Part shown: piece by piece, positions 3,253-46,477 of the stretch
Layout of the letters: every line of letters begins with the position of its first letter
Position numbering within the stretch: position 1 is the first letter of the stretch
Assembly: GCA_033398695.1 (NCBI GenBank)
Contig: CM065804.1
Location: 48,143,501-48,207,500, forward strand
Reading direction: 5' to 3'
Origin: Orobanche coerulescens
Lineage: Eukaryota > Streptophyta > Magnoliopsida > Lamiales > Orobanchaceae
Length of the DNA: 64,000 nucleotides
Notes under the pieces: model-generated
Database searches by the model: none
Told to the model about the DNA's origin: nothing
The model's input: the letters and a program-made list of their open reading frames with translations, nothing else
Position numbers and translations under genes: made by a program

Positions 3253-3308
3253 TTACGGCCGTAACTACTGAATGTTACGGCCGTAACTACTGCATGTTAC
3301 GGCCGTAA
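3253..3308 (+). repeat. Palindrome array, TTACGGCCGTAA x3, 22-bp pitch
   Basis: Perfect palindromes at 3253-3264, 3275-3286 and 3297-3308, each start exactly 22 bp from the last. The spacers are similar here (ACTACTGAATG and ACTACTGCATG), so this array could also be read as a 22-bp tandem repeat. It ends 128 bp before the TATA box. Confidence 0.95.
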
Positions 3309-3436
3309 CTCTTGACAGATTGTGATAATTTGTCTAATTTTTTATACTTTTTGTGTATTATTGAGGGGATGGCTGACATTGATCCGATCTATTGTAATAA
3401 TGCTGGAGTTTTGGAGCTATTAGATGACTTTAGGTG

Positions 3437-3444
3437 TATAAATA
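3437..3444 (+). promoter_or_regulatory. TATA box of Tat-type LTR
   Basis: TATAAATA in the context AGGTGTATAAATAGACC is a near-consensus plant TATA box inside the LTR, as expected at the U3/R border. Confidence 0.6.
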
Positions 3445-4447
3445 GACCCCTTAGATCCTTCATCATTCATCATTCGTCTTATAATTTTCCACTTTTTGTA
3501 ATATTTTCTTTTTGTTTGAAGAACACACTTGTGTTCTTGAGTGATTTGTGTAAGAGTGGTATAGCATATATTGTTTAGAGAGTTTATTGCTTCTTTCTCC
3601 TTTATCTACTAAGGGAGTGAGGATCAATTCTTTCTCTTGATTCAACTAATAATGACCACTCAAGCTTGTATTATGTATATTAGACCTTCATGGGCTAAGT
3701 TACCTTTAGTTGGGATTATAAACAAGGTTAGTCATGTTATTTAAGTTTGTATAAAGATCTATTGTAAATTACTTATTATTGTGTGTGATTTTCATTGTTT
3801 TAACAATCTTTATTTGTTTGGCCAATAAATGACGATATTTATGGTCTTCATATGTTTCGAAAGAAAATATGTTTGATTAGATCAAATGATCTTCACTCTA
3901 AGTTGTTCTAGGGGATAGAAATATACCTCTAGACCTTAGATGATTCTTTGAGTTATTTTCATAAATCCTAGTGCTATGTATTGAAGCCAATCAACATAGA
4001 AATATAGTTGATTGATTTAATATGTAAGGGGCGTTTTATAGTTCGAAAGAGAAACCGTCTTTTTAAGGAAAATCGAATCTACACAACATAATAAGTAAAT
4101 TCATCTTATGATCTCCTATACATCTTCTATAACTAATGACGAACTAAGTTTGTAATCCCAACTATTTCATTTTATCGTTAATCAATCTATTTTTTGTGCA
4201 ATCTTTTTATTTCCTTAAAATATTAGAACTATTATTACATTTTCTTTGCAATTATTAAACCAAACTCTTTAATTGTGTGTTTCACTCATCTTAGTAGCTA
4301 TAAAAAATAGACTAATAGTGTATAATTCAAATTATAACCAAACTTCCTCGTGGGATCGATAAACCGGACTCAAAAAGTCCACTTACTATTTGATACGATA
4401 TCGTGCACTTGCGATAGTTACACTAAGAACGTGTCAAGTTTTTGGGG

Positions 4448-4478
4448 CACTGTAATAGCCGCCTTTTGGGGTGTTACA
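4448..4478 (+). mobile_element. Remnant of the 5' LTR of element 1
   Basis: These 31 bp are identical to the end of the 3' LTR (32010-32040), starting CACTGTAATAGCC and ending GGGGTGTTACA. The rest of the roughly 2.7-kb LTR is missing; the Tat-type LTR ends 11 bp upstream. A deletion or illegitimate recombination is implied. Confidence 0.9.
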
Positions 4479-4483
4479 GAAGA

Positions 4484-4495
4484 TGGTATCCGAGA
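4484..4495 (+). other. Primer binding site of element 1 (tRNA-Met type)
   Basis: TGGTATCCGAGA lies 5 bp after the LTR end. It differs by one internal base from the TGGTATCGGAG found at the same place in elements A, B and C, and matches the initiator-Met tRNA 3' end type used by many plant LTR elements. Confidence 0.8.
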
Positions 4496-6009: not shown

Positions 6010-9000
6010 AGGATTTACGAGATGAAGAAGGCCGATGATCCCGAAGCCAGCATGATTGCAGGTGCTCTCGAGATCCGATCTCAGCCCATCTGTGTTCTGT
6101 TTGATACTGGTGTTTCATATTCCTTTTTATCTTCTTCTTGTTTGAGTCATTTGCAATTAGATCATGTTACCAATTGTGAACCTTATGTAACTAGTCTACC
6201 CGATGGTAGAAGAATTGTTGGGAATCTTGAAGTGCATAACTGTCCGATTTGCATGAATGACCATGAGTGGTTGTCAAACCTAATTGTAGTCGATTTACCT
6301 AAAGATGATGTAATCTTGGGTATCGATTGGATGGATCGTCATGATGCCATACTTAGCGTCCGCAAGCGGATAGTGACCGTCACATCTGAAGATGGCGTTG
6401 AGTATATTTTTCAGGGTGACAATCCCAGCCGTTCCGGGAGAGTCATCAGCACTATGAAAGCAGCGAAACTGCTTAATCAAGGGTGTATTGGTTATTGGTG
6501 TTACATGACCAAAATAGCGGATCGACCAGTTGAATTGGCCGATATTCCGGTAGTCCAAGACTACCCAGATGTATTTCCGGATGAGTTTCCAGGCTTACCT
6601 CCACATTGTGATGTAGAGTTTACTATTGAGTTAGAGCCAGGTACGTCCCCACTTTCGAAAGCACCATATCATATGGCTCCGACCGAGATGCAGGAGTTGA
6701 AGAACCAGCTTGAGTAGTTGACCGAGAAAGGATATATTCAACCTAGTGCGTCTCCTTGGGGAGCATCAATGCTACTTGTATGGAAGAAAGACGAATCTCT
6801 GTGTTTGTGTATTGATTACCATAAATTGAACCAGGTAACCATCAAGAACAAACATCCATTGCCTCGTATTGATGATTTATTGGATCAACTTTTGGGAGCT
6901 GTTGTGTTTTCTAAGATTGACTTGAGGTCTGAGTATCATTAGTTGAGGATTCGAGAGTCTGACATTTCGAAGACCGCTTTTCGTACTCGCTATGGGCATT
7001 ATGAGTTCGTAATGATGCCTTTTGGACTGACTAATGCACCCGCGGGATTCATGGAGTTGATGAATCGAGTTTTTATTAATTATCTGGATCGCTTTGTAGT
7101 TGTTTTTATTGACGGCATTCTGATTTACTCTCGTGACCATGAAGAGTATGAACGTCATCTCCATCTAGTTCTCGGTGCGTTGAGGCAGGAACAGCTTTAT
7201 GGGAAGTTTTCCAAATGTGAGTTCTAGATGCCTTAGATTATTTTTCTTGGGCATGTGATATCAGCCGAAGGGGTGAGAGTAGACCCACAGAAGACAGAAG
7301 CTATCCGAGACTGGCTACCTCGAAGAACGTGAAGGAAGTTCGCAGTTTCCTGGGTCTAGAAGGTTATTACCGACGGTTCGTAGAAGGTTTTTCCAAGATT
7401 GCGCAACCGATGACTAACCTGTTGAGGAAGGATAAGAAGTATTTGTGGTCAGGGGCATGTCAGCAAAGTTTTGATGAACTCAAGAGTCGATTAATTTCAG
7501 CACCTATTTTGGTTCTACCAAAAAGAACGGAGGGATTCGTAGTGTATAACGACGCATTGAGACAGGGCCTTGGATGTGTACTAATGCAGGAAGGGAAGGT
7601 GGTTGCCTATGCATCGAGACAATTGCGACCCTATGAAGTTAAATATCCGACCCATGATTTGGAGCTAGCGGCCATGGTGTTTGCTTTGAAAATATGGCGC
7701 CACTATCTGTATGGAGTTACCTGTCAGATCTTTACTGATCACAAGAGCCTGAAGTATATTTTTACTCAGAAGGAGTTGAACATGAGGCAGAGAAGGTGGC
7801 TAGAACTAATAAAAGACTATGATATCGAGATCATTTATCATACGGGCAAAGCAAATGTGGTTGTCGATGCCTTGACTCGTAAGACTATACATGATCAGAT
7901 ACTTGCCCGCTTGACAGTTGAGAGAGAATTGCAGTTGGAATTCGTGAGGCCGTAAATTGAAGTTTGGTTACAGCATATTCAGGGACAACTTTGCACACTT
8001 TAGATTTCATCATCCCTTGATGATAGAATCAGATCGAAGCAGGTTACGGACCCATTCTTATCTCGAGTTCGGGATGAAATAACTCAAAAGAAAGCCCCTA
8101 GATTTGTGATCCACGAGGATGGATTGATATGCTTCAGGAATCGAGTTTGCGTACCCATAGACGACGAGTTGAGGAACTCTATCCTGAGAGAGGCCCATGC
8201 TACCCCATACTCCATTTACCCGGGGTCTAGAAAGACGTATAAGGATTTAAAGCAATATTATTAGTGAGGTAATATGAAACGTGAAGTTGCAGAGTTTGTT
8301 TCGAGATGTTTAACCTGTCAGCAGGTTAAGATTGAGCATCAACGACCCGCACGAATGCTGAAACCGCTCCCAATTCCCGTGTGGAAATGGGAGGACATAT
8401 TGATGGATTTTATCACTAGCTTGCCGACGAGTCGTCGAGAGATGAAAATGATTTGGGTGATTATGGACAGTCTAACCATATCAGCCCACTTTTTAGAGAT
8501 TAAAGACACCTGGGGACCCGATAGATTGGACCAGCTGCTTATTAAAGAGATTGTAAGGTTACATGGTACCCCCAAGAGTATTGTATCCGATCGTGATGGG
8601 AGATATGTGTCTCACTTCTGGAAAGCAGTTCATCGTGCAATGGGTACGTAGTTGAACTTCAGTACGGCATTTCATCCGCTAACTGATGGTAAGTCTGAAC
8701 GGACTATCCAAACTCTAGAGGATATGTTGAGGGCGTGCGCTCTTGATTGGAAGGATGATTGGGAAGCCCAACTGCCCTTGATGGAATTCACTTACAATAA
8801 TAGTTGGCATGCTCCGATTCAGATGGCACCATATGAAGCATTGTATGGCTGTCGTGGTTGGTCTCCGTTGTGTTGGGATGACCTGTCTGAATCTTTGGGT
8901 ACAGAACCTGATATGTTGTTAGTAGCCCGAGAGAAGATCGCTCTGATTAGAAGTCGTTTGTTAACAGCTCAAAGCCGATAGAAGTCTTACACAGACAACC

Positions 9001-9425
9001 GTCGACGACCACAAAAGTTCATGGTCAGCGACCATGTACTAATGAAGGTGTCCCCTACTCGAGGTGTTTTTTGTTTTGGGAAGAGAGGCAAGCTGAGTCC
9101 GAGGTATATCGGGCCGTTTGAGGTTTTGGAACGAGTAGGCGATCTGGTCTATCGTCTGGCATTTCCACTAGCTCTGAGTCGGATTCATAACGTGTTTCAT
9201 GTCTCCCAGTTGAGGAAATATGTTGCTGATCCGAGTCATACACTTCAGTTCGATGAGATCGAAATAGCGGAGGATCATTCATACGAGGAGCTTCCCGTAC
9301 AGATACTTGAGAGGAGGATCAAACTGTTGCGGAACAAGACAATACCCCTACTGAAGGTTCAGTGGTCACGACACGGAGTCAAGGAAGCTACATGGGAGAC
9401 GGAGAGCAGCATGCGAGAGAGGTAA
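6010..9425 (+). pseudogene. pol: Pol of element 1: PR-RT-RNaseH-IN-chromodomain, broken
   Basis: Protease has LFDTGVS (about 6098). RT spans about 6550-7227; its catalytic YxDD box reads FIDG near 7110, so a catalytic Asp is lost. RNase H (about 7329-7900) lacks the first catalytic Asp context seen in sister copies (VVYNDA rather than VYSDA). Integrase keeps CLTCQQV of the zinc site and the DDE blocks MDF, SDRDG and KSERT (about 8300-8710). The chromodomain (KVQWSRHGVKEATWE) ends at 9423. Stops at 6715, 6940, 7225, 7953, 8649, 8979 and frameshifts near 7230-7330 and 7960-8270 disable it. Most stops replace a Gln or Trp codon of the sister elements. Confidence 0.92.
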
Positions 9426-9455: not shown

Positions 9456-9460
9456 TGAAA
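9456..9460. repeat. TSD of element A, left copy (TGAAA)
   Basis: TGAAA precedes the TG of the A 5' LTR and recurs at 19047-19051 directly after the CA of its 3' LTR. A 5-bp duplication is standard for Ty3/gypsy integrase. Confidence 0.9.
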
Positions 9461-9616
9461 TGTAATATCCGGATTTATTACAGTGTATTTCATCTGTATT
9501 CAAACCATGTATTATTTCGGATTGGTGATTTTGATTATTGGAGTATGATATCTAGTGCATTAATATCATTACGCATAAGTATAGAAACATGCAAAATTGC
9601 TCAAGCAACCTTGTGA

Positions 9617-9837
9617 TAGCGCACGCTAAGAATGTATCTTAACGCGCGCTATCGGGCCATTTTTAGCGCACGCTATGCAGGTATGAGTAACGTGCGCTAA
9701 GGACTCAATTATTGAGCGGGCACTGCCTGCGCGCCAAGGGACATGGGTCCGGATAAGATTCCCGCTGACGCACCCGGACAAAATCTGAAGTCAACCATTA
9801 TTAGCGCACGCTAAGGGATGCTTAGTAGCGTGCGCTA
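9617..9837 (+). repeat. Palindrome array 1 of A 5' LTR (TAGCGCACGCTA type)
   Basis: 12-mers start at 9617, 9640, 9664, 9688, then 9802, 9826: steps 23, 24, 24, gap 114, 24. Units are TAGCGCACGCTA, TAACGCGCGCTA, TAGCGCACGCTA, TAACGTGCGCTA, TAGCGCACGCTA, TAGCGTGCGCTA. All have CGNNCG at the centre. The array ends 22 bp before the TATA box. Confidence 0.95.
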
Positions 9838-9859
9838 ACTTGTCAATAATGCAGAATAT

Positions 9860-9866
9860 TATAAAT
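9860..9866 (+). promoter_or_regulatory. TATA box of A 5' LTR
   Basis: TATAAAT in AATATTATAAATGAGAC. The same box is at 17102-17108 in the 3' LTR and 44509-44515 in element C, always just after the two-unit part of the array. Confidence 0.65.
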
Positions 9867-10677
9867 GAGACATCAACGGCTTGGGCTTTCATTTCCTTCG
9901 TTTTTACTTCATCTTTGAGAGTCCAGAGAGCAAGAATCTCCCTTCTAAACACTTAGAACGTTTATGAGTGATCATGGAATGATTGAGTATCATTTGTGAG
10001 TGATCATTGAAGAGAAGTAACACCTTGGAGTGGCACATAACCAACCGGAGTCGAATTACACCTTGTGGTTCAGTGAATCCAGCATATTAAGGTATGTTCA
10101 ACCTATCACCAGTCTTAGATTTGGATTTCCAATGGATATGATGATCATGTTATCGAGATATTGAATTTCATTAGTGAATTATTTCAACAACATCATGTTT
10201 AGAAGATTGGGATGTCTACAATTACGTTATTATTGTTGGAACCTTGAAGTTGGAATCCTAGTACTTCAATTGATGAGAGAATATTCGGAAGTTAACAATC
10301 CATATGATTTATGTGATCATGATTTGGAAAAGATGTTATAAGGACTTAAAGAAAGAATCATCTTAGGAAATATTCTTTCGTATAAGTCGGGATTGTTAGT
10401 TCACCTCAAGATGAAGTCTGAATATGTATAATGATAGTAGCATCTAACACATCAACCGGAGATAACCAACCTTGCATGAAAAATTGTAATCAAGATGGAT
10501 TATGGTGTCATGATGATTATACGTATATTTTTGCATCTTGAAGTTGATATCATCCTGGAGATCATTCATAAGAGTAAGAACTTGGTATTCATGGAAGTAA
10601 CATGAATTATCACGAAGGATTTCATTGTTTCGAACATGGCAAGAATAGCGATCGCTCAAGCAAATCGCCATGCGAGA

Positions 10678-10891
10678 TAGCGCACGCTAGATTGCGCTTA
10701 ACGCGGCGCTATCGAGTACTAGTTAGCGTGCGCTACGTTTGGTACGTAACGTACGCTAGACCACCAGTCGAGTCAGTTGGCTGATCAGTGAAGTACTGAC
10801 CATGCATAGTTAACGTGCGCTAGTAATTGTTGTTTGCGTGCGCTATCGGGCAGACGTAACGCACGCTACACAGAATACTTAGCGTGCGCTA
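10678..10891 (+). repeat. Palindrome array 2 of A 5' LTR, downstream of TATA
   Basis: Units start at 10678, 10699, 10724, 10747, then 10811, 10834, 10857, 10880; the last four are at exactly 23-bp pitch and the first four average 23. The 3' LTR (about 17934-18132) and element C (45340-45555) carry the same array. It lies about 0.8 kb past the TATA box, so it would be in the transcribed leader if transcription starts there. Confidence 0.92.
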
Positions 10892-11755
10892 AGCTATTCG
10901 GGCAGATTGCAGTTTATGAACTTTTGACCGTTAATCGAATTGTTTAACATTTGTACGACGTGAGATAAATCCTATATTATTTCTTTTGTTAAGGTTTGGT
11001 CTAGTTACGTGATTAATTGAGGAGGACGATCGTCGAGTGTTCATTTCCGTGGAAGTGTTATTATTGTCTTCAAATCAAGGCAAGTACCTTAATTGTTTTA
11101 TGTAATGTTGTTATACATATTGTCGTGCATGTATGTCGTTATTGTATGTCCACCTCGTGTTGGTCCGACGGGATCATCGGGGGATCTATGCTAGCGTCTT
11201 ACCGGATCATCGGACGGGTTTTTCCACCACGGGTTGGTCCGACGATCATCGTGGGTTCTAGGCAGTGAACGCTGGATCGATGGAATTACCATGTGTATGT
11301 ATTGATATCATGTTGTGATTATCAGTTGTGTATGTTATGTTTGAGTTTCTCGTAGGAGAAGACTCGTTGGTATTTTGTCGTTTACGTTATTATTATTATT
11401 CACCGTGAGATATGAATAATATGTTGTGGTACTTGTACTAGCATCGTTGTGCTAACCCCTTCGGGGTGAACATTTTGTTTGTGTTCGGGACCCGGAGAGC
11501 GGGAAACAACCACCTGGAACAAGATGACAACGAGGGTGCATAGTGATGTCCCGAACTGGTTTATTAATCTGTTGTTTATTCGTTATTTCAATAAGAACTC
11601 GAGTACGAAGTCGTTTGTGATGCTATGAATTTGGTAATCTATTATTGAGTTCTGTTGAACAATTGTACTATTCTGTATTGGGTCGAACGATGTACCGTAA
11701 TTCCGTTATTTCCATTTATTAGTACCCTTTTTATACTTGTTCAATTCTTCACCTT

Positions 11756-11780
11756 GTAAATCCTTACGTAAAGGATTTAC
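11756..11780 (+). other. Stem-loop near the 3' end of the A LTR
   Basis: Arms GTAAATCCTT and AAGGATTTAC (10 bp) flank the loop ACGTA. Copies occur at 18984-19008 and, with the loop changed to ATGTA but arms intact, at 46413-46437 in element C. It sits about 35 bp before the LTR end; a role in RNA 3' end formation or packaging is only inferred. Confidence 0.6.
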
Positions 11781-11819
11781 GGCGCAGAATATTCCCAATA
11801 TATCGGGGTGTTACGAATA

Positions 11820-11831
11820 TGGTATCGGAGC
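11820..11831 (+). other. Primer binding site of element A
   Basis: TGGTATCGGAGC, 5 bp after the LTR end; tRNA-Met type. Confidence 0.85.
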
Positions 11832-12047
11832 TAAGATTATGGATATCTTGGCCGTTGGGTTAAAATAGGGTCATTTATGTCTTTTGGGGTAACCGGCCGT
11901 GAATGACATCACCGCACCGCCACGTCTTCATGCGAACGGTGGTTGTAAGTTCCTAAACTCTATCTCGTTCTTTGCATATTGTATCTCTTTATACTCGGAT
12001 ATTAGAACGATGTTGTTTTCTCGTATATTGAGTATTTATGCTTACGT

Positions 12048-13110
12048 ATGTTGAGAGGCGGGCGTGGACGTGGTCGCGGTCGTGGACGCGACGAAGAAAT
12101 GCCGAAAGGGAGGCGTCGCCTTCTAACCAGTTATCATAGCTCGGCGAGCCGCAAAGAATCTATTAATAATGAACCAGATCCTGTTGCAGAGATCCTTCGT
12201 CAAGTGGTGAACCAGATGACTGGCCGCCTGTGTCGTGGACCGAATGCAAGTGGCGGTGGGACTACGGCAGGGAGAGAGACAGCAAGGGATCCAGATATGG
12301 GAAATCGAGGTGACCGGTGGTCGCAAGAAGTGGCAAAGATGCAACCACCCAAATTCGACGGTATTTCGAGACTCCCACCAGGATCATTGGTTAAAGGAGC
12401 TGGAGAAAATCTTTGCCGAATCAACCGCCAGACGATAGGAAAGCCTCTATCGCTCAATATTTTACGATAGGGAAGCGTCCGAATGGTGGGAAGCCATCCG
12501 GCTGTAGACCATGATGCCGATTGACAGAGTTTAGATTAATGATGGAAGCTCGATTGCCCTCGGCCCCGTGAGGGAAGCCAAAGTTCGAGAGTTTTTCTCC
12601 GCTCGGCCTTTCCGATGTGCGTATCCTGCAATCAAGACGTTTAACCAAAGAATGGCATTTGTTCGACATCTGGTCAAAACAGATGCGTAAATGATGATTC
12701 ACTTCGATATGAGAATGAAACCGAAGTCCAGAGGTACATGTCCGGATTCGAATGTACCACACTCCGCCAATACCAGATAAGGCGTTGGCATATGAGATCA
12801 AGGAAGCGGCCATGGAGAAATTTGCGAAACCAAGAAACAGAAAGTCTCTGGTACTTTTACGAGCACAAGAACAGTGGGGCCCGTAAGGCCCAGTCATCCT
12901 TTCACTCTTTCAGAAACCTCCGCACCCGGCTAGGAACGGAAGGAACTTGGGCGACATCAACTCTTACCGATGTTACCAGAAATGCTTTAATCTGCGCCAG
13001 ACGGGGCACTATCGACGAATTGCCCCCTTCCGCCGTGACTTGTTTTGACTGTGGACGAGAGGGACATCGGGCGGTGTTTTGTGAAGAGGCCGCAAAGTCT
13101 TCGAGCCCGT
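12048..13110 (+). pseudogene. gag: Gag of element A, heavily frameshifted
   Basis: ATG at 12048 opens MLRGGRGRGRGRGR, the same basic leader as element C (46713). Capsid-like sequence follows in pieces over all three frames (for example QPPKFDG-like text near 12340 and MSGFECTTLRQYQ near 12738). The zinc knuckle CFDCGREGHRAVFC is readable near 13040-13080. Compared with element C there are many one- or two-base losses and changes, a large share of them at CAG/CTG trinucleotides. Confidence 0.85.
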
Positions 13111-13309
13111 ACACCACAACTACCCGTAAGGAGGCGGTATTCCACAGACGCAGCAAAGTGTTCAGATGCCTCGAATTTTGGCCGCGGCGAGGCAGAGGAC
13201 AATGGGACCGAAAGGGGACATCGAGTGCCGGATCTGTTCCCACGTCCGCATTTGAGATGAGGAGGACAGACGATCGTGATGTCATTGCCGCATCGTGCAC
13301 TTGCCCGCA

Positions 13310-16300
13310 TCCTTTCCCGGCCATTAGCGTTTTATTTGATACAGAGCTACACATTCTTTCATATCTTTGTCTTGTGTAAATCGTTTGAATATTTCCGGTT
13401 TCATGCTTGTGAACCTTATGTGGTTGGGTTACCGAGTGGAGAAAGGATTGTCGGAAATTTAGAAACTAGAAATTTCCCGTATCATTTGGAGGCAGAGAGT
13501 GGCTCTCAAACCCGATCGTGATAGAAATGCAAGGAGATGACTGATACTCGGAGACGATTGGCTTAATCGGTGCGGAGCAATTGTAAACTACCGAAGGAGG
13601 AATATCTCATTGTCGCCGACGATGGTTCCGAGATTCTCGTTTGAGGGATGGAAACCGGAAGCCTGTGAAAGTTGATCAAGGCGATGAAAGTCACAAATTG
13701 TTGAAACAAGGTCAGTATCAATCGGTGCTACGCAATGAAGAAAGAAGAAGAAAGGGTGGAACTTTCATCTATTCCTGTGGTGAACGAATTTCCAGATGTA
13801 TTTCCTGATGAATTACCTGGGCTACCTCCACGAAGGGATGTAGAATTTACTATTGAACTGGAACCTGGAGCGACACCAATTTCTAAAGCACCGTATCGTA
13901 TGGCACCTACTGAGATGTACGAACTGAAGAAGCAGCTGGAGGAGTTACTGGACAAGGGCTATATTCAGCCAAGCGTTTCACCCTGGGGAGCGCCAGTTCT
14001 TTTTGTCCGAAAGAAGGATGGATCGCTCCGACTGTGTATTGACTATCGAGAGCTGAACAAGATGACGATTAAGAACAAGTACCCGTTGCCACGGATTGAT
14101 GATCTGTTTGACCAGCTGCAAGGGGAAACAGTATTTTCTAAAATCGATCTGAGATCAGGATACCATCAACTGAGTATTAAGGAGTCTGATGTTCCGAAAT
14201 CAGCGTTCAGAACTCGCTACGGGCATTATGAGTTTGTAGTGATGCCGTTTGGACTCACTAACGCACCTGCTGTATTTATGCAATTGATGAACAGAGTGTT
14301 CATTGAATATTTGGACAAATTTGTGGTCGTATTTATTGATGACATCCTGGTGTATTCTAAGAGTCCGGAAGAACATGCGCAGCATTTGCGGATAGTATTG
14401 GAGCTTTTGAGAAACGAGCAATTGTACGCCAAACTTGCTAAGTGTGAATTTTGGCTAAAAGAAGTAATGTTCCTCGGCCATGTGGTGTCAGCTAGAGGAG
14501 TCCGAGTGGATCCTCGAAGATCGAAGCAATATTGGATTGGAAGCCTCCAAAGAATGTGAAGGAGGTCCAAGCTTCTTAGGACTTGCTGGATATTACCGTC
14601 GATTCGTGGAAGGATTTTCTAAAATTTCCCGCCCACTTACTCGACTTCAGAAAACTCAAAAGTTTGAGTGGAACGAGTCGTGTCGACTAGTTTTGATGAG
14701 TTAAAGAAGAGATTGACAACGGCACCGATTCTATCACTTCCGCAGGGAACCGAAGGATTCATAGTTTACTGATGATGCTTCGAATCAAGGACTTGGGTGC
14801 GTGTTGATGCAGAATAATAAGGTGGTCGCTTATGCGTCGCGACAACTGAAACCTTATGAAGTGAATTACCCGACACATGATTTGGAACTAGCAGCAGTGG
14901 TTTTTGCCTTGAAGATTTGGAGGCATTATCTGTACGGGACTCACTGTCAGATCTTTACGGATCATAAGAGTCTCAAGTACATATTCAGTCAGAAAGAGTT
15001 GAACATGCGGCAAAGAAGATGGTTGGAACTGATTAAGGACTATGACTTGGATATTTTATACCATCCAGGCAAAGCGAATGTAGTGGCCGATGCACTTAGC
15101 CGCAAGCCTGTCTCTATTCAGATACTGGAGACACTGACCTCCCAACTTAGCCTTCAGCGAGAGATGATTCGTGAAGGGATTGAAGTGTGGTTACAGAGAG
15201 TCCAGCGACAACTGTGCGTGATGGAGATAACTTCGTCATTAACCGAAGAAATCAAATCTAGACAGGCAAATGATCCTCTGATGATTCGGTTGCATGACGA
15301 AGTGATCAAAGGAAAGGCCCCCGGATTCATAATTCATGACGATGGAGTTTTGAGATTTCAGAACCGACTCTGTGTTCCCGATGTTGATGTTCTGAAACAG
15401 ATGATTATGAAGGAAGCTCATAGTTCGCCCTATTCTATCCACCCGGGCACCAGTAAAATGTATAAGGACTTGAAGCAGAAGTTCTGGTGGGGCAACATGA
15501 AGAAAAACGTAGCGGACTATGTTTCGAAATGCTTGACTTGTCGTGAGTTAAGATCGAGCATCAACGGCTCTTTGGAATGTTGAAGCCGCTCCCGATTCCT
15601 GAATGGAAGTGGGAGGACATATCAATGGACTTTATCACTAATATGCCGAAAACCAGGACAGGAATGAACATGATTTGGGTGATAGTTGATCGTTTAACTA
15701 AATCGGCTCATTTTCTAGGCATTAAGGATACGTGGGGACCAGAGAGGTTGGCACGAGTCTTTATTTCAGAGATAGTTCGATTACATGGTACGCCGAAGAC
15801 CATTGTTTCGATCGAGACGGCCGCTTTGTGTCTCACTTTTGGAAGGCGCTCATAAGGCCTTGGGACCGAATCAACTTCAAGATGACTTATCACCCGCGAT
15901 CGACGGACAATCTGAGAGAACTATACAAACGGTGGAAGACATGCTAAGGGCCTGTGCCTTAGATTGGTCAAACGATTGGGAAGTTCATCTACCGTTGATT
16001 GAATTTACGTATAACAATAGTTGGCATGCTTCCATTAAGATGGCACCGTTTGAGGCATCATACTGAAGGAGATGCAGATCGCCCCTATGCTGGGACGATT
16101 CATCGGACTTGATCGAATGTAACTGCAGTTGATCGAGCGGACTCGAGAGAAGATAGCCTTAATTTGTGAAAGGTCATGATCGCCCAGAGTCGCCGTGAAA
16201 TCCTATGCGGACGTACGTCGTCGCCCATTCGAGTTCAATACTGGGGACCATGTACTTTTGAAGGTTTCTCCTACTCGGGGAATTTTTCGTTTCGGAAGAA

Positions 16301-16663
16301 AAGGAAAGCTGAGTCCGAGATATATCGGACCATTTGAGATCCTCGAGAGAGTTGGGGAGTTGGCATACAGATTAGCATTACCACCGTCATTGTGCCATGT
16401 TCATAACGTGTTCCACGTATCCCGAGCCATGGAGATATATACCAGATCCCAGTCATATCATCGATTTCGGCGAGATCGAAGTCGAACAGGATGGGACGTT
16501 TGAGGAAAAACCAGCCAAGATACTCGAGAGTCGAGTTAAGCAACTGAGGAACAAGTCAATCGTTTTGGTCAAAGTTTAGTGGTCACGTCATGGAACGGAA
16601 GAAGCCACTTGGGAAACAGAAGCTGATATGAAGTCTAGATATCCCGAGTTATTTTCGTCTTGA
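13310..16663 (+). pseudogene. pol: Pol of element A: PR-RT-RNaseH-IN-chromodomain, frameshifted
   Basis: The protease region (about 13320-13520) has lost its DTGA box by frameshift. RT is open from 13735 to about 14510 with FIDD and [10 protein letters not shown] intact. A frameshift near 14515-14570 separates the rest. RNase H is open from 14801 (about 14830-15110, including FTDHKSL), after a disruption near 14770. Integrase has CLTC near 15535, then a shift; MDF and the SDRD region follow to about 15830, where a base loss breaks the second Asp block. The chromodomain (about 16530-16650) has an in-frame TAG before WSRHG. Translation would end YPELFSS at 16661-16663. Confidence 0.92.
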
Positions 16664-16678
16664 GTTTCGGGACGAAAC

Positions 16679-16698
16679 TCCTTTTTAGTAGGAGAGTA
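16679..16698 (+). other. Polypurine tract of element A
   Basis: CTCCTTTTTAGTAGGAGAGTA region immediately before the 3' LTR TG at 16699; the purine part is AGTAGGAGAG. Position rather than purity makes the case. Confidence 0.6.
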
Positions 16699-19046: not shown

Positions 19047-19058
19047 TGAAACTCCTTT

Positions 19059-19071: not shown

Positions 19072-19264
19072 TGTAACATCCGACAGTAATTTCTTATCTA
19101 CTGTTGTATTTTTTGGATAATTTGATTATACTTGTAATCATGTTACATTAAGTTAATGTTTATTAATGTCGCAGAATGGACTTGTTTATGACTATCATTC
19201 GCATTGTGGTTGATTTCTTGACGTTGTGTAGATTGTTACATTTTTGGGCTAGAATTTCTGTGTT

Positions 19265-19588
19265 CAACGTACGCTAAGACTTCAACCTAACGTACGCTAT
19301 TTAGATGGATTTACGTACGTAATGGAGTGCTGGTTACGTACGTAATGCTTGGAATCTTATCTGATCTCACTTTCGGCGTGGGGGGCCGGACATGATCCGG
19401 ATAGATGGCCTTTTCGAGACAGCCAGGTTGACATACATTACGTACGTAATGCCGTTGCCCATAACGTACGTAATGAAGTTAGTGTTCTGAGGCAGTAACA
19501 TCTGGAGACAGATTACGTACGTAAAACTTTCGGTGTAGCGTATGTAAAGGGGTTAACGTACGTTATCTTCATGCGATAACGTACGTAA
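19265..19588 (+). repeat. Palindrome array of element 1 LTR (TTACGTACGTAA type)
   Basis: Units start at 19265, 19288, 19311, 19334 (23, 23, 23), then 19438, 19462 (24), then 19513, 19536, 19554, 19577 (23, 18, 23). Forms include TAACGTACGCTA, TTACGTACGTAA, TAACGTACGTAA and the decayed TAGCGTATGTAA. Spacers show no similarity to each other. The array ends 12 bp before the TATA-box position. Confidence 0.96.
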
Positions 19589-32040: not shown

Positions 32041-33797
32041 TAACCAAGCAAGATAACTTGCCTCAATTCCATAGGTGAAAGATAGTCCTTCTCCAAATGA
32101 TCAAACGGACGGTATCCTCGATTAAATACTCAATCAAACAAGCAACCTTGAATGAAACGTAATTCATTCAATAATACATTCACATAATATTGATATCAAT
32201 TCGTAGGAAACGATGCTCGAACCAACCCAAATAATTCACTCTATTCCAATGAACATTCTACCGATTATTGATGAATTTCAATACATATGGTTTGTCTTCC
32301 ACAAATCGGATTACTATACTAAAATGTCCTTTTAATACTCTTGTTATCACTATAAACAAGTTTATGCATTAAACACCTTCAATTCACTATTAACAATCAG
32401 ATTAACCAAGTTCTTACGGTTCTTCAACATCTACTTCTATACAAAGACCATCATAAATGAATTCAATACATTATCAATCACAATTAGCATTACCATCTTA
32501 AGTACACTATCCACTTTATTATGATGATCTATACTTCTTTAAGTTATCAACACATTCAATTAATTAAAACTTATAGTTGCATTCATCCGTATTCTTATCA
32601 AATCTCAGGACTTTGCTAAGCCGAATCAACAAAGGTGTTATATCTTTTAAGATTTTTGGACTAAGAGAAACATCATTCCTAATCTCTAACATTCATCAAG
32701 TTCTTCCCAAGGTAGGAAATATACCTAACATGGTGTTTTAACACTTCTATGATATCAATTCCATTGATTAAATTTAACTGCGATGAAGCTAAATGATTAT
32801 CATTATTCTGCTGATGTTAATACAACCAGCAAGATGAGTATGATTTTTATAAACGTGATCATTATCAATAAAACGTCAAGAACATATTCATTCCAAACCT
32901 TTAATTACCATATTCATTAATAGGTGTTAAAAAGCTTAACCACAAATATGTTTTACTTGATTAATTCAATACTAGGTGTAGTATACCATATCAATATCAT
33001 CATAACTACGAAAATATAGAGTAGAATCACACAACTTACTTCCAGAAATGAAGAATAAACCACCAAAACTACAAGAACACACTCCAAGCTTCAAGAACAC
33101 CTTCCAAACTTCCAATCAACAAGCTCCAATCCAAGATGCAAGGCTCAAATACAAGTTGGAAGAGGGTATAATCGGTCTAGGTAGGCAGGGGGACGATAGC
33201 TTGGAGAGAAAAATCAAAGTTGGAACGTACAAATGAAAGACACAAGCTGTCTTTTTATAAACTGCACAATCTATTACATACGTTATAGCATGAAGCTAAC
33301 GTACGTTAATCACTTTACGTACGCTACACATAAGTTGTTACGTACGTAATCTACCTCCGGAGGCTACTACCTCAAAACACCAACCTCATTATGTGCATTA
33401 TAGCCTCAGCATTACATACGTAATATACGTCAACTTGGCTTTCTCGAAAAGGCCAATTATCCGGATCATGTCTGGCCCCTCATGCCGAAAGTTGAGATCG
33501 GATAAGATTCTAAGCATTACATATGTAACCAGTACCCCATTACGTACGTAAAGCCAACACATTAGCGTATGTTAAGTTAAATATTAGCATATGTTAAACA
33601 CAGAAAACATAGCCAAAAAATGTAACAATCTACACAACGTCAAGAAATCAACCACAATGCGAATGACACTTATAATCAAGTCTATTCTGATATATCCCGA
33701 CATCAATAAACATTAACTAAATGTAACATGATTACAACAATACTCAAGTTATCCGAATAATACAATAGAAGTTAAGAAATTACTATCGGATATTACA
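32041..33797 (-). mobile_element. LTR I: truncated inverted LTR of the element 1 family
   Basis: On the minus strand it begins TGTAATATCCGATAGTAATT at 33797 and matches the element 1 LTR up to the position equivalent to 30989, where it stops against the end of the element 1 3' LTR (32040/32041). The palindrome array in reverse includes starts at 33274, 33297, 33315 and 33338 (23, 18, 23). The TATA box TTTATAAAAAG is intact on the minus strand (33252-33261). Confidence 0.88.
33252..33261 (-). promoter_or_regulatory. TATA box of LTR I (minus strand)
   Basis: Minus-strand TTTATAAAAA, 12 bp after the last palindrome of the array. The element 1 copy has G in place of T at the third base of TATA. 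Confidence 0.6.
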
Positions 33798-36652: not shown

Positions 36653-36940
36653 TTACGGTCGTAAGGTCTGGCCGATTACGGCCGTAAGGCAACCGCATGT
36701 CCTGGCCTGGGAGGAATCGGTTACTGCCGTAAGGCTTCGTTATGGCCGCAAGGCATTGGCCGGTTATGGCCGTAATGTGTCGGCAGGTTTCTGGCAGTGG
36801 CCCTGGGAGTTCGGTTACGGTCGTAAGGCCATGCCGAGTACGGCCATAAGTGTCGTAACGTACATAAGGTGTTGGCCACTACGTACGTTATAGGCGTTGA
36901 CCGAGTTATGGCCGTAAGACCCTGCCAGTTACGGCCGTAA
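36653..36940 (+). repeat. Palindrome array of LTR F (TTACGGCCGTAA type, mixed)
   Basis: Units start at 36653, 36676, 36721, 36740, 36764, 36815, 36838, 36856, 36879, 36906, 36929. Steps of 23 dominate, and the run 36815-36879 has steps 23, 18, 23, the same as the last group in the element 1 LTR. Most units are TTACGGCCGTAA-like, but 36856 and 36879 are TAACGTACATAA and CTACGTACGTTA, so two motif cores coexist. The array ends 12 bp before the TATA box. Confidence 0.93.
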
Positions 36941-39186: not shown

Positions 39187-40683
39187 ATGGCGTTTCAATT
39201 TGCTCCAGTCGAAGGCCTTGCTCTTAACCGACCACCATTTTTTGATGGCGCAAATTTCATGATATGGAACAAAAAGATGTCAATATTCATCCGAGCTTAT
39301 GACATCGAGATTTGGAAGATCATTTGTCTTAGCCCGAAAGTTCCAATCAAACCTGACGAATCTCTCAAGAGTTTCGAAGAATATAACGACGAGGACTGGA
39401 AAAGCGACCATCTAAATTGTAAGGCTACTCAACTCTTATATTGTGCCTTAAATCCGGAAGAGGTCAATCGTATCTCATCGTGTGAAAGTGCTAAAGAGAT
39501 ATGGAAAATTCTTGAAATCACACACGAAGGGACAACTCAAGTCAAGGAGACGAAGATCAATATGCTTCTCCATGGCTACGAGTTATTCATGATGAAGGGT
39601 GACGAGTCCATCACCAACATGCTTGACCGATTTTCGGTCATCACAAATGGACTAGCTTCATTAGAAAAACCATTATCTAGTAGTGAAAAAGTCAAGAAAA
39701 TTTTACGATCACTACCTAGCGAATGGGACGGCACCGTGACCGTGATCATGGAATCTAAAGATCTCAATACGCTTGATTTTAGCGCCCTAGTCTGTTCGCT
39801 AATTAATTATGATATAGTGTTAAAATCACGAAGTGTCAAGCCAAAGCCGAAGAAACGATCAATAGCCTTAAAGGCTAAGATGTCAAAGAAAGAAAAAATC
39901 CCGGTGGATGATAGCGATGAAGAATCGGCATATTATGCCAAGAATATTAATAAGTTCCAAACCTTATTAAACCGGAGAACGAAGGACATATCGGCCGAAT
40001 CTAAGAAATTCGATAATAATTGTCGATTATGTGGTAAACCAGGCCATTTTGCCAAGAATTGCGAAGCTAAACCAAAGAAGGAGGTTCTCGTTGCAACATG
40101 GAGCGATGAAGATGAAGATAATGATTTTATCAATCAAAATAATCTCGCTCTCATGGCCTGAAATTCATTCGACGATAGCGACGTCGAAAGCCAAGTAAGT
40201 AGTTCTTACGATGAATTATTTGAAGCATTTGAATTATTGCATACGGATTATCAAAATGCATTATCAGAAATAAAATCCCTTCAATTTAAAAATAAATCTT
40301 TGGAAATTGAAAATTCCAAAATTCTTGAAAAAGGGAAATTTGTTGAAATCGATCATTCTAAATGCCTTGAAAATGAAAATATTTTAAAGGATGATCTTGT
40401 TAAAATGCAAACCGAGCTAAAAAATTTGATAAAGAAATTTTCTTTCGGAAACGAGAAATTTGAAAATATGCTCTCGGTTCAAAAGTTTACTTTAAATAAA
40501 GATGGGTTAGGATTCAAACCACGTTTTAAAAACGAATCCGTAAATTTCAAAATATCCCATTGTGAAAAATATTTGAAAATCGGGGATCATATTTCAAACT
40601 GTAAGAGCCCAAGACGGACGACTAAAATTAAAAAGATTTGGGTTCCTAAAGGAACAAATATTTTAAATATCGTCTACGTCTAG
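39187..40683 (+). pseudogene. gag: Gag of SIRE-like copia element D, one nonsense codon
   Basis: MAFQFAPVEGLALNRPPFFD opens a copia-type Gag (UBN2-like capsid domain, about residues 20-215). A CCHC zinc knuckle CRLCGKPGHFAKNC lies at about residues 279-292, followed by an acidic stretch. TGA at 40159-40161 interrupts an otherwise open frame that continues to 40683. The second part is a Lys/Glu-rich, probable coiled-coil segment (about residues 350-430) and a degenerate second knuckle HCEKYLKIGDHISNC, ending in KKIWVPKGT, a SIRE-type signature. Total about 498 codons. If the TGA were read through, Gag would be whole, so this copy may have been active in trans until recently. Confidence 0.9.
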
Positions 40684-41250
40684 AAAGAAAAACCAACTCT
40701 CAGTTGGATCCCCAAAAATTGATCTTTTATCAATATATTTTACTCAGGGGAGTAACAATTTTTTAAAGGGGAGATAATATTTTCAGGGGGAGTTTATACC
40801 CTTTTCATAAATATAGTTATTTATCATTTGATATCATGCATATTTTATATTTGGTATCATTATATTTATTTTTTTTCACACTTTTTGATGAAAACAAAAA
40901 GGGGGAGAGAAAGGAGAATGAAATTAACCCTGAAAGGGGGAGAAAAATCGAAAACGAAGAAAAGTCGAAAAGTTGAAATTGAAAAGAAAAATGGAAGTTG
41001 AAAGGAGAAGAAAAGTCGAAAAGATGAAGTTGCAAAGAAAAATGAGGAGACGTTGAAAAGATGACGAAATCTTGAAAATTCGAAAAGAAAAAGAAAAGGA
41101 AAGAAGGAGTTGAAAAAGAAATGGGAGAAGAAACTAACGAAACGGACAAAATCAAAAACTTTGGTCTGTATACATATACATATACTTGTATTTTTTGCAG
41201 GTAAATCCCATTGACGAAGTGTTGTTTTGTAATCATCAAAATGGGGGGAT
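40684..41250 (+). other. 3' non-coding region of element D with purine tracts
   Basis: Contains several GGGGAG runs (40745-40790), AAAAAGGGGGAGAG (about 40898) and a purine-rich segment of repeated GTCGAAAAG/GTTGAAA words (40940-41130). ATGGGGGGAT (41241-41250) directly abuts the 3' LTR start TGTTGG and is the likely polypurine tract. No copia pol remains. Confidence 0.7.
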
Positions 41251-41256: not shown

Positions 41257-43226
41257 TGTTAGGAGTATGCCCTCGAATGCCACTCAGAGGATGTTGAGTG
41301 AGGGCATTGTACTTGTTATTATGTAAATCATCAATATAAGGCAATGTATGTTTCTTTATTTACTGGTAGTTACTGGCATTCCTAAACTCGTAAATATACA
41401 TATAGAAACTAGTCCGTGTATTTGAGAGCAAAACATTCCACTCCTTATTGGATAAGGGGGTCGGCACTGGAAAGGTTTATAGCTCAAATACTTAATCGTT
41501 CGCAATTCGATGAAACTTGACTGGGCGTTAAGTTTATGTAAAGACTTGTATGACGTGTTCTTTGACAAGGAGAGTGCCTGTCGAACACTAATGGTTAGTG
41601 GTAGCGCACGTTATAGGTATGCTAATTGGATTAGTATACTCGAATCGACTCACCCTCGATTCGTCACACGGATTTCACTCCGGGACAGTCAATGATGGAA
41701 TCGAAAGGTTGTGATAGGTATTCGTGAACCTTCGACTTGAGGATTTAGTAGAGATGTTCTTGTGACGTCAAGATTTTCATTAGAGTAGTTCGACCCTGTA
41801 AACCGGAAGGCGGGGGTCAACCTCGACGTGCATCTTGACGGGCAAGTAGCAGGTCCTACTGAATACCAAGATAGAATTCTTTCTCCTGTTAGTGAACGGG
41901 TTATATGTCCTATGCGGTTATTGGCAGATGAGATCATAAGTCTTTGGCCAAAGCAATGGAGCTAGCTGTATTAGATACACGAGAGCTCGATGATCTCGAT
42001 TTGCATTAACGCATGCATAACGTCAAGTACAGATGGGGTTTGACTGACCGTGACCCTATAACTTGATCGGGACATTTGAAAGAAGGGTTTATACATTATC
42101 TTTGGTATTCACGACATAATGGTTCTTGAATGATCCCAATCATTCGTTCTCAGTCGGGGTACAGTGTAGGCCACCAGGCTGGCTAGGTGGTGCTACTACT
42201 CTTTGGTTCCTCCCATTGCTGACTGAGACGGACCTACCGAGTCTCGCATTAGGATTGACGACGGAATAAATCGAGCTTAATCTCTCATTATGAATATTAG
42301 ATATTGGATATCTAATTTGAGACATTGGATGTCTAAATCGATTGATTGGATAAATTGATTTACGGCCTAATGGATTAAATAAATTACTGGGTGATTAATT
42401 TAATTCATGAATATAATTATTTCTTGGAGAAATTAATTATATTATTTTGTATTTGATATGTTTAATTAATTGGATTAATTAAACAATATAAATACATCGG
42501 AACGGAATTGGAGTTTATCTGTTTGGACTCTCGAGAGTCCGAAACGAACCGAACTCGTCCGATTTCTTCTAGAGGCCGGCCCCCACCTTGATTTCCTACC
42601 TTGATCATTGTCTTGTTTTCTTGTTGGAAGACTTTTGACATATGAGATTTCATATCTCTTATTATAAGGGTAAGGGAGATTTTGTGGGTGAAAGATTATC
42701 TTGTGAATGATTTGAAGACCAAAATAAAACCTCCTTTTCTCTCCTCCTTGTGGTCTCACGGCATTTATCATTTTCAAGAGAGAGGGAAGAAAAAACTTGG
42801 TCTTGTGTTTTTCATCATTCACATTTTCTTAGAGAAAAATTGTTGAGAGATATATTATACACTTAGAGTGTAATAATAAAAGCTTCATCACTTGATTCTA
42901 GCCGTAACCTTAGAGGTTAATCGAGTGTTGTTGTTCCGATCGTTTTTCCGGCGCGTGGCAAGTAGAGACGCGGTGCTTTCGGCGTTGGATCGTTCAAGAG
43001 ATTGGAGCGGATTGGATTCGTAGAGATCAATCAAAGCTTGGGGAATAGCTCAAGAGAAGGTTACCATTTAATCAACGGACTTCGAGGGTTAGTTTCTTAC
43101 GACTCTTGCTTTTCGTTTATATATTCGTATATACGTAGCTCGATCGATCCTCGTAGGGATTCGGATCAAATTAATTTTCGTTTTACCGCTTCCGCTGGGC
43201 CTTCGTTTTAGGCACCGAATCCCAAC
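41257..43226 (+). mobile_element. Solo LTR E inside the 3' LTR of element D
   Basis: Starts TGTTAGGAGTATGCCC, ends CGAATCCCAACA, flanked by GTTGG at 41252-41256 and 43227-43231 (5-bp TSD). No internal sequence and no second LTR. Removing it joins TGTTGG to AACATTTTGTTCC, the D LTR start. I see no palindrome array in it. The superfamily cannot be assigned from an LTR alone. Confidence 0.88.
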
Positions 43227-43358
43227 AGTTGGAACATTTTGTTCCATACATGCTTAATAATATTTTGATGATTAAAGTTGATACACAAAACAAAACAACA
43301 AAAAGATGAAGCAAAGCATCGAAGAAGACGAAGTGCAAAAAGCTGGAATTTGCAAGGC

Positions 43359-43652
43359 TAACGTACGTAAACTGTTAATCATAGCGTACGTTACAAGTGT
43401 GAAATAACGTACGTAAAGGATGGTACATAACGTACGTAAAGGTTTTCAAACGAGAAGAACGTTGGCAAGAGTCAAAGTCAGAAAAGCAGCAACGGATATA
43501 TGACGTCAGCAATGATGTAAGCTTAACGTACGTAATGCAAGATCGGCTAACGTACGTAAGGAAAGAAACGAATGCTACTGGACTGAAACTGGTACGTGCT
43601 AACATACATAATCTTTGATGTTTAACGTACGTAACACTGTTAGCATACGTAA
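43359..43652 (+). repeat. Palindrome array of copia D LTR (TAACGTACGTAA type)
   Basis: Units start at 43359, 43382, 43405, 43428 (23, 23, 23), then 43524, 43548 (24), then 43600, 43623, 43641 (23, 18). Units include TAACGTACGTAA, TAGCGTACGTTA, TAACATACATAA and TAGCATACGTAA. The group pattern four, two, three with 23/24/23-18 steps is the same as that of the unrelated gypsy element 1 LTR. Confidence 0.96.
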
Positions 43653-43717
43653 TGAAAGGAAGATAGCAGCCGTAATCTATGCACAGGGAGTTAACGGCTA
43701 GTTTGGTTGATGAAGGC

Positions 43718-43725
43718 TATAAATA
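43718..43725 (+). promoter_or_regulatory. TATA box of copia D LTR
   Basis: TATAAATA in GGCTATAAATACCAC, 66 bp after the palindrome array. Confidence 0.65.
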
Positions 43726-44106
43726 CCACATCTTTGGTATTATTCCATACAACAACTTCAAGCATACTACTCATTGATCAGATATTTATATTGATATTAT
43801 TGTTGTTGTGATATTGAGCTTATATTGTTAGTTTGAGGGTTTATACATTCAACATTATACATGAGAGGTAAAAGAAAAGATACGATTGGATTCGGTGTTA
43901 TTAGGATCAAGGATCTGGCATTATTAGAATCGCAATCGATATCTAAGTGAGGTTTATCTGGTACCCATAGAAATCTAGAACGGTTTGTTCCTTGTCCAAT
44001 AGAAAATAAAAATTGTTTAACTTGGACCAACACAAAGACAAGTACGAGTGGTTTATCACGGACCAATAGAAGACGTGATTATAAACGGTTATCCCTCGAC
44101 CGATAG

Positions 44107-46477
44107 TGTAATATCCGGATTTATTACGGTGTATTTCATCTGTATTCGAACACTGTATTATTCGGATTTGTGGTTTTGATTATTGGAGTATGATATTTCT
44201 TGCATTGCTATCATTGTACATAAGTATGGAAGCATACAAAAATTTCTCATGCAAACTCGTGATAGCGCATGCTAAGAATGTATCTTAATGCGCGCTATCG
44301 GGCTACTATTAGCGCACGCTATGTAGGTAGGAGTTGCGTGTGCTAAGAACTCAATTATTGAGCGGGACGGCTAGCACATGCGCCAGCCGGGACATGGGTC
44401 CGGATAAGATTCCCGCGGACGAACCTGGACAGTTCTGAAGTCAACTATTATTAGCGCACGCTAAGGAAAGCTTAGTAGCGTGCGCTAACTTGTTAAAATG
44501 CAGAATATTATAAATGGGACAACAACCCATTTTGGCTTACATTTTACTCGTTCCTTCTGCATTCTTGTGAGGCCAGAGAGCTGAGATAACCCTCCTACAT
44601 ACTTAGAACACATATTGTTGGTGTATATATATTGGTTATCACTTGGGAGTAATCATTGAAGTGGAATAGCACCTTGGAGTGGCATACAACCAACCGGAGT
44701 TGGATTCTACCTTACGGTTCAGTGATTTTCATCATATTAAGGTATGTTCAATCTATCTCCAGACTTAGAGTTGGATTCTAACGATTTGGATGATCATGTT
44801 AACAAGATATGGATTTTCATAGATGAATTATCCAAGTATATCATGTTTGGAATATTGAGATGATTAAGCCTTAAGTACCTTGATTATGATCATCATGATT
44901 CGAATCTTATTACATTGAACAAGTAAAGGAAGCTTCTATCATTGGTAATCCGAATCTAATAGATGACTTCATAGCAATCTTGGACTTGACTTTAACATCA
45001 TTATTGTTAGATAAATCTAAAGGATTGATCATGGAAAGATTTATCTAGTATAGATGGAACGTTTAACAACTTCATCATGATAATATTGATTGATATAAAG
45101 GTGTCGATATCAACCGTTAAGCCTTTCGAATTGTCGTATGAAGATTTGTAGTCGGAATGGAATATGGTTTTATATTGGTATGCATATCCTTGAATCCGAA
45201 GTTGTCTTTATCCGTAAAATCATTCATAAGGGTATGAACATGATAGTCATGGAGGTAACATGAATTATCACGGAAGATTTCATTGTTTTGATCATGATGA
45301 GAACAGTTTACTGCTCAGCAGTAAACTGCCATGCATAGATAGCGCACGCTATGCTATGAAGATTAACGTGCGCTATCGAGCACGAGTTAGCGTACGCTAC
45401 ATTTGGTATGTAATGTACGCTAAGCCATCAGACGAGTCAGTCGACTGATCAGTGTAGTACTGACCATACATAGTTAGCGTACGCTAGGCTTTGTTGTTTG
45501 CGTGCGCTATCGAGCAGACTTAACGCACGCTACACAGAGTACTTAGCGTGCGCTAAGCGATTCAGCGGTGCATTTTATGAACTTTTGGCCATAAATCGAA
45601 TTGTTAAACATTCGTACGACGTGAGACAAACCCTATATCATTTCTTTTGTTAAGGTTTGGTCTCGTTACGTGATTGATTGATGAGGACGACCTTCGAGTG
45701 TTCGTTTTCGTGGAAGTGTTGTTCTTGTCTTCAAATCGAGGCAAGTACCTTAATTGTTTTATGTATTGTTGTTATACGTATTGTCGTGCATGTATGTCGT
45801 TATTGTATGTACACCTCGTGTTGGTCCGACGGGATCACCGGGGGATCTATGCTAGCGTGCGCTGGATCATCGGACGGGTTTCTCCACCACGGGTTGGTCT
45901 GACGGGATCATCGTGGGTTCTAGGCAGTGAACGATGGATCGTCGGAATTACCATGTGTATGTTATGATATCATATTGTGATTATCAGTTGTGTATGTCAT
46001 TTTTGAGTTTCTCGTAGGAGAAGACTCGTTGGTATTTTTCTTGTCGTTTACATTATTCGTGAGATATGAATAATATGTTGTGGTATTTGTACTAGCATCG
46101 TTGTGCTAACCCCTTCGGGGGTGAACATTTTGTTTATGTTCAGGATCCAGGAGAGTGGGAAAACAACCATTGGAGCTGCATGACGACGAGGGTGCAGAGT
46201 GATGTTTCGGCCGGGTTTATTTATCTGTTGTTTATTCGTTATTTCAATAAGTACTTGAGTACGAAGTCATTTGTGATGGATTTGAATTTGGTGATGTATT
46301 ATTGAGTTCCTGTTGAACAATTGTACTTTCAGTATTTGGTAAGAACTGTTGTATCTTAATTCCGTTATTTCCATTCGTTAGTACCTTTTAATGTCTGTTC
46401 AATTCTTCAGCCTTGTAAATCCTTATGTAAAGGATTTACGGCGCTGTAATATTCCTGAATATATCGGGGGTGTTACA
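44107..46477 (+). mobile_element. 5' LTR of element C
   Basis: Starts TGTAATATCCGG, ends GGGGGTGTTACA. Has both palindrome arrays: 44263, 44286, 44310, 44334, 44452, 44476 before the TATA box (44509), and 45340, 45364, 45388, 45411, 45474, 45498, 45521, 45544 after it. A hairpin with 12-bp arms CAGTTTACTGCT / AGCAGTAAACTG (45304-45328) stands just before the second array; in A this site is degraded. Also a UUCG-type hairpin (46109-46122) and the stem-loop at 46413-46437. Confidence 0.95.
46109..46122 (+). other. UUCG-tetraloop hairpin in the C LTR
   Basis: ACCCC-TTCG-GGGGT: 5-bp stem with a C(UUCG)G loop, an exceptionally stable RNA hairpin type. Followed 25-30 nt later by TTTATGTTCAGG, a splice-acceptor-like sequence. 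A has the weaker form CCCCTTCGGGG. Confidence 0.6.

Follow-up and report, generated by a model that had tools for sequence, protein, structure and literature searches.

Arrays of a 12-bp CpG near-palindrome at a local 23-bp pitch as putative composite enhancers in gypsy and copia long terminal repeats of Orobanche coerulescens

The long terminal repeats (LTRs) of gypsy and copia retrotransposons in a 64-kb window of the Orobanche coerulescens genome (the whole stretch of DNA analysed, 64,000 nucleotides of contig CM065804.1, positions 48,143,501 to 48,207,500) carry arrays of a 12-bp near-palindrome, TWRCGNNCGYWA, with the core CGNNCG, and neighbouring sites mostly lie 22-24 bp apart. We propose, with a probability of roughly 0.6, that these arrays are composite LTR enhancers, or cis-regulatory modules, of chromovirus-like gypsy and Sirevirus-like copia elements, and that they are read by a DNA-binding factor. 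Each site would be bound by a sequence-specific protein, probably a dimer because the site comprises two CG half-sites, and proteins bound to neighbours 23-24 bp apart could contact each other and thereby cooperate. The special steps of 18-20, 51-53, 63-65 and about 96-124 bp would impose a fixed layout, often just upstream of a TATA box, and the presumed outcome is activation, with the element being transcribed. The binding protein may be host-encoded and sensitive to CpG methylation. At the sequence level, a predicted DNA-binding factor is the natural inference, as a protein that binds the sites and contacts its neighbours would account for word and pitch being preserved while the spacers vary more freely.

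The exact 12-mer occurs 77 times in the window, compared with a Markov mean of 0.65 (maximum 3 in 60 runs), and 75 of the 77 copies fall within the arrays described here. Site pairs spaced by 23 bp are found 23 times, and never in 100 shuffles (0.00). In six non-redundant arrays, with site lists picked by hand (53 sites), 32 of the 47 steps measure 22-24 bp; random placement gives a mean of 4.0 and a maximum of 12 in 5000 trials. These six are A1 in the 5' LTR of the gypsy element A (9617-9837; six sites, steps 23, 24, 24, 114 and 24 bp), A2 in its 3' LTR (17917-18131; steps 23, 24, 23, 64, 23, 23 and 23), the array of element 1 (19265-19588; ten sites, steps 23, 23, 23, 104, 24, 51, 23, 18 and 23), that of the 5' LTR of B (20244-20446; steps 23, 24, 24, 24, 20, 52 and 24), array F (36653-36940; 11 sites matching at least 10/12 positions, containing the series 24, 51, 23, 18 and 23) and array D (43359-43675; ten sites, steps 23, 23, 23, 96, 24, 52, 23, 18 and 23). 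Excluded from the step count as copies or tandem repeats were the second LTRs (A1 at 16855-17079; A2 at 10678-10891, some 0.85 kb past A1 in the 5' LTR; B at 28547-28750), the array of the inverted LTR I (33274-33596, minus strand), the arrays C1 (44263-44487) and C2 (45340-45555) of one LTR of element C, and three TTACGGCCGTAA sites at 22-bp steps (3253-3308) in a putative Tat-type LTR, so labelled in the original prediction. Weak matches at 9597 (10/12), 10646, 10922 and 43457, 43501 and 43566 (10/12 for these three) were not taken as sites. An automatic motif tolerating CpG decay returns the same D vector; it misses the first element 1 site and some F sites.

Sites and coordinates are thus as the original prediction had claimed, including the excess of 22-24 bp steps, and the arrays occur more widely than it stated. 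Its description of the motif as palindromic or near-palindromic holds for the near-palindrome, perfect palindromes accounting for only 10 of the 53 sites. The site centre is TA, CA/TG or CG in A, B, C, element 1 and nearly all D sites, and the core CGGCCG is found in F, Tat and the last site of some D copies. In array F (36856-36890), GC- and GT-centred sites are mixed with two TA-centred sites just past the 18-bp step, a mixture hinting at two related specificities.

The genome-wide check at 23 bp that had been suggested with the original prediction was run on the first 20 of one hundred random 10-kb stretches drawn from the 3.646-Gb assembly, and the peak was found. The sample holds 130 exact sites, compared with 0-2 in five shuffles, and the distances between sites peak sharply at 23 bp (37 pairs) and 24 bp (17 pairs), while nine control motifs gave at most four sites each in the sample and zero pairs at 22-24 bp. 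At least three clustered sites are present in 9 of the 20 stretches, and when CpG-decayed sites are counted, 100 of 155 adjacent steps up to 130 bp fall at 22-24 bp. Extrapolation yields about two million exact sites genome-wide, with a wide error since the sites cluster. With sites masked, 35 arrays (13 from the window and 22 from the sample) form 17 groups, some groups merely pairing arrays from the same LTR. Chromovirus-like pol or protease matches accompany eight of the nine array-bearing stretches (none in the ninth, L025), and in the sample, array L035 has a D-like gag at a distance of about 1.2-1.5 kb.

Not only the size of the steps but also their order is kept. Element 1 and D agree in 8 of 9 steps (permutation p = 0.002), the gaps of 104 and 96 bp differing, and F shares the series 24, 51, 23, 18, 23 with their vector (p = 0.024). 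An overlap of site positions at a single offset (matches of at least 10/12) was tried and set aside, being mostly not significant (element 1 vs D: p = 0.19 by step shuffling, 0.034 by random placement); it is weak because the 96- and 104-bp gaps differ, and the step-order test on hand-picked sites was therefore used. Among 15 D copies (16 minus one near-duplicate), 134 of 135 steps are within 1 bp of 23-23-23-96-24-52-23-18-23, and 11 element 1 copies keep 98 of 99 steps, relatives with replaced spacers among them. It was array similarity, not a random draw, that led to these copies, with the exception of I in the window and of L033 in the random sample, the latter keeping the vector with other spacers. 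By eye and without statistics, the long gaps of B and D have the short word CTGGACTG in common, and those of A1 and element 1 contain GGACATG-N2-TCCGGATA or a sequence near it; such words are perhaps candidate sites for a second factor.

The spacers between the sites turn over at fixed length. In the D copies, non-CpG divergence reaches 0.41-0.49 in spacers 1-3 and 0.48-0.58 in spacers 7-8, with 0.199 in spacer 5 and 0.258 in spacer 9, compared with 0.004-0.144 in the sites; the 84-bp gap gives 0.106, the 40-bp gap 0.180 and the flanks 0.167, so that five of the seven short spacers are roughly three times as divergent as the flanks. Along some 870 bp of the D LTR in eight copies, windows outside the array diverge by 0.03-0.17 and those dominated by short spacers by 0.25-0.41. 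The effect is milder in the element 1 copies (short spacers 0.252, flanks 0.138, sites 0.065), and the A2 family is without hypervariable spacers (0.255, 0.225 and 0.102, respectively). The D spacer types move as blocks in differing combinations, which suggests block exchange; the case for swapping is built on these mixed combinations and on the identities between spacers, most of which are high or else close to chance. A four-gamete test of such exchange gave no complete set, and a search for donors of the D spacers in the DNA examined returned a few exact 11-mers elsewhere and none inside the arrays described here.

Between families, the sites themselves are conserved. Sites chosen in one sequence of each pair were scored in its partner, with non-CpG and CpG changes counted apart. 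Between A and C, non-CpG changes affect 5 of 102 site positions, compared with 19 of 105 in spacers (p = 0.004) and 378 of 1888 elsewhere (p = 3e-5), and CpG changes 4 of 54 in sites against 37 of 154 elsewhere (p = 0.009); with the sites picked in C, the corresponding values are 4/72, 15/60 and 392/1983 for non-CpG and 0/36 vs 36/165 for CpG. Between element 1 and I, non-CpG changes are found at 1 of 64 site positions, 26 of 104 in spacers (p = 2e-5) and 66 of 497 elsewhere. The CpGs of this second pair show no protection in the sites (7/32 vs 7/30), perhaps owing to decay of both copies. Within elements, site non-CpG changes between the two LTRs of A, or of B, are not significantly fewer than in spacers or the rest. 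From the 5' to the 3' LTR of A, the site CpGs changed less than those of spacers (1/54 vs 7/20, p = 0.0003), and no difference separates them from the remainder of the LTR (8/157); taking sites from either LTR gives CpG changes of 5/60 in sites and 13/161 in the rest. Since sites and step vectors are kept while spacers change, the between-family conservation, the kept vectors and the genome-wide peak support the claim, already made in the original prediction, that selection acts on motif and geometry. It could be envisaged that a host repressor recognises the sites and recruits silencing, as the large numbers of sites in repeats might indicate; elements would, however, be expected to lose such sites, yet these change less than the spacers or the rest of the LTR between families, and we regard this explanation as extremely unlikely.

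The position of the arrays is also informative. A TATA-like word starts at base 22 after A1 and base 21 after C1 (both TTATAAA), base 15 after I (TATAAA, minus strand), base 13 after F (TATATA), base 43 after D (TATAAA) and base 129 after Tat (TATAAA). Five of them (A1, C1, I, F and D) thus stop 12-42 bp short of such a word, which suggests that they may be enhancers. A function at the RNA level could also be considered, in which the near-palindromes act within the U3 portion of the transcript through mutual pairing, as a source of small interfering RNAs (siRNAs) or as a packaging signal. The element 1 array folds better than 100 of 100 shuffles (z = -6.0), and maize Sirevirus palindromes are described in the available portions of PMC5311732 as small-RNA hotspots. 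The D array, however, reaches z = -1.4, with 8 of 100 shuffles equally good; the scarcity of perfect palindromes likewise speaks against it, and RNA pairing needs no fixed pitch. This possibility appears highly improbable to us.

Several observations weigh against the enhancer reading. A single lattice phase per array was rejected (permutation p = 0.27 against step composition), and as no common phase extends across the long gaps, the 23-bp pitch is local and not array-wide. Co-variation of the half-sites, considered as proof of a dimer, is found in the pooled families (p<=0.002) and is lost when shuffling is done within arrays (p 0.22 to 1). No TATA-like word was found downstream of array B or of element 1 itself, and no clear one downstream of A2/C2; the placement of arrays about 12-130 bp before a TATA box, as first stated, holds for A1, C1, I, F, D and Tat. 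The registered short spacers of D and element 1 are 0.34 identical, compared with 0.26 when shuffled (seven spacers, p = 0.043), and their shared vector may partly reflect common descent. Finally, the spacers are related to each other within F (p<0.001) and B (p = 0.002).

This last point, along with the Tat array, a 22-bp tandem repeat of three units with repeated spacers, and C2, whose two halves are a diverged duplication (74%), would be expected if the arrays were ordinary minisatellites spread by slippage, the pitch being a by-product of the repeat unit. Simple 23-bp repeats with a similar core do occur in bacteria: pattern scans of other sequence collections returned no plant arrays, yielding in turn 2 viral contigs that carry short tandem repeats, no contig, and 11 bacterial contigs, among which Bacteroidales-type and Treponema metagenome-assembled contigs (L005-L011, L013) have 23-bp tandem repeats whose core is TNACGNNCGTNA and whose spacers are themselves repeated, the pitch following from the query, whose pattern fixed a 23-bp step. 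In six of the eight arrays tested (A1, A2, element 1, D, C1 and C2), however, the similarity among spacers does not significantly exceed that of shuffled letters (p 0.06 to 0.80), and the sites and step vectors outlast spacer replacement. The lack of spacer conservation originally described therefore stands for these six and fails for F, B and Tat. An origin purely as tandem repeats is very unlikely in our estimation, and a repeat origin followed by selection is possible.

Returning to the enhancer reading, an extension of it can be put forward tentatively, and we consider it doubtful: by convergence or exchange, two LTR superfamilies in one genome may rely on a common factor and a common spacing grammar, swapping fixed-length spacers wholesale, perhaps through recombination between identical sites. 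Because the pitch is close to the length of a 24-nt siRNA, such an siRNA could not fully match a copy with other spacers, and the array would thus keep its activator, or an anti-silencing factor, and escape RNA-directed methylation. The extrapolated two million or so sites may also titrate the factor.

The elements concerned can be described as follows. Element A (9461-19046, plus strand) was delimited by self-alignment, with LTRs at about 9461-11812 and 16699-19046, and is flanked by the 5-bp target duplication TGAAA (9456-9460 and 19047-19051). Judging by the order of parts, element 1 is split by the insertion of A: the integrase end at 8982-9422 (plus strand; Pfam SH3_Tf2-1, with a chromodomain match below the Pfam cut-off) is assigned to it by this order, and its 3' LTR (19072-19805, plus strand, end approximate) is preceded by a purine tract. 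The inverted LTR I (33051-33797) is a relative of element 1. The Sirevirus-like copia element D comprises a gag (39187-40161, plus strand; Pfam Retrotran_gag_2), whose closest relative is from Orobanche gracilis (82% identity over 66% of the query), and three AGGGGGAG purine tracts (40785-40942, plus strand), a word also present three times in B. Nested in the 3' LTR of D is a solo LTR (41257-43227, plus strand; target duplication GTTGG), which carries a single isolated site but no array. Over 7 kb, A and C are 87% alike, the internal parts of A, B, C and element 1 align mutually at 64-68%, and the F and B LTRs have 281 bp in common at 83%; on account of these alignments, A, B, C, element 1/I and F are assigned to one related gypsy lineage. 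The claim that unrelated families carry the arrays thus holds for gypsy vs D and not for each named family. The LTRs of A and C each have two arrays whose starts are about 1 kb apart (9617-10891; 44263-45555), and the region following A2 resembles the promoter region following the arrays of element 1 and I; the long A/C LTR may contain two promoter modules. Elsewhere in the window, alternating direct repeats of 79 and 103 bp lie at 52563-53037, and an open reading frame (ORF) at 917-1312 has a lysine-decarboxylase-like domain (PF03641), which we take to be perhaps a fragment of a LOG-type host gene.

Palindromic boxes are already known in plant LTR promoters, their reader not being named in the parts of the literature compared. 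The strict local pitch, the step vector common to a copia and a gypsy family and the turnover of spacers at fixed length together constitute a testable protein-DNA geometry. With the array, the factor that drives elements common in a 3.6-Gb genome, or shields them from silencing, could be probed directly, and a natural experiment is at hand on the possible escape of promoters from siRNA recognition. Among 18 open-licence papers containing the site letters, none is on retrotransposons by its title.

Several known systems deserve comparison. NAC transcription factors bind as dimers to the palindrome CGT-N7-8-ACG, according to the consulted part of PMC4081100. The core CGT[G/A] is found on either strand in 48 of the 53 sites, whereas the full palindrome has a single match in the six arrays, and a NAC factor may be taken as a lead only.

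The targets of VANC proteins in VANDAL elements consist, in the sections compared, of many copies of the short word YAGTATTAY in non-coding transposable-element DNA that evolves fast (Hosaka et al. 2017, PMC5735166; Sasaki et al. 2023, PMC10398659), and the unrelated element AT9TSD1 carries the same motifs. By analogy, a protein encoded by some transposable element, or a host demethylation complex, could bind the array and strip silent marks. Dense short motifs in non-coding DNA and fast divergence parallel these targets, and the site CpGs are kept between A and C. In the same sources, however, the VANC motif is non-palindromic and lies in one orientation in tandem repeats that evolve together, unlike the six arrays whose spacers are not significantly alike (those of F and B being related), and the VANDAL element encodes the binder. 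A Pfam scan of ten window ORFs recognised no DNA-binding regulator, one ORF being without a match. We consider such an anti-silencing platform possible, though unlikely.

In the upper half of Sirevirus LTRs lie the repeated motif (RM) boxes, palindromic CpG boxes that are present in high copy and conserved against LTR divergence; their CpG islands lie on average 37 bp before the TATA box, and the boxes have a CGG-CCG core and are absent from the classic Ty1/copia elements studied there (Bousios et al. 2010, PMC2829016, in the portions available). In maize, the cis-regulatory region of Sireviruses is said to combine palindrome clusters, high sequence variability and many small RNAs (Bousios et al. 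2016, as cited in PMC5311732 and PMC10760457); the passages of these two papers compared do not describe a pitch or sharing across superfamilies, and those of PMC2829016 make no mention of a fixed pitch, of a step vector in common or of spacers being swapped. Most arrays here lie in gypsy elements (A, B, C and element 1) rather than in a Sirevirus, with a CGNNCG core in place of CGG-CCG, apart from the CGGCCG sites noted above. Element D, in turn, has a copia gag and three purine tracts that would fit a Sirevirus, the purine word being found in B as well, and its ten sites shortly before TATAAA agree with the description of at least eight copies, mostly in the upper LTR half, shortly before TATA. 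As far as these sources extend, the Sirevirus palindromic CpG boxes (PMC2829016) are the nearest precedent for the arrays, nearer than VANDAL.

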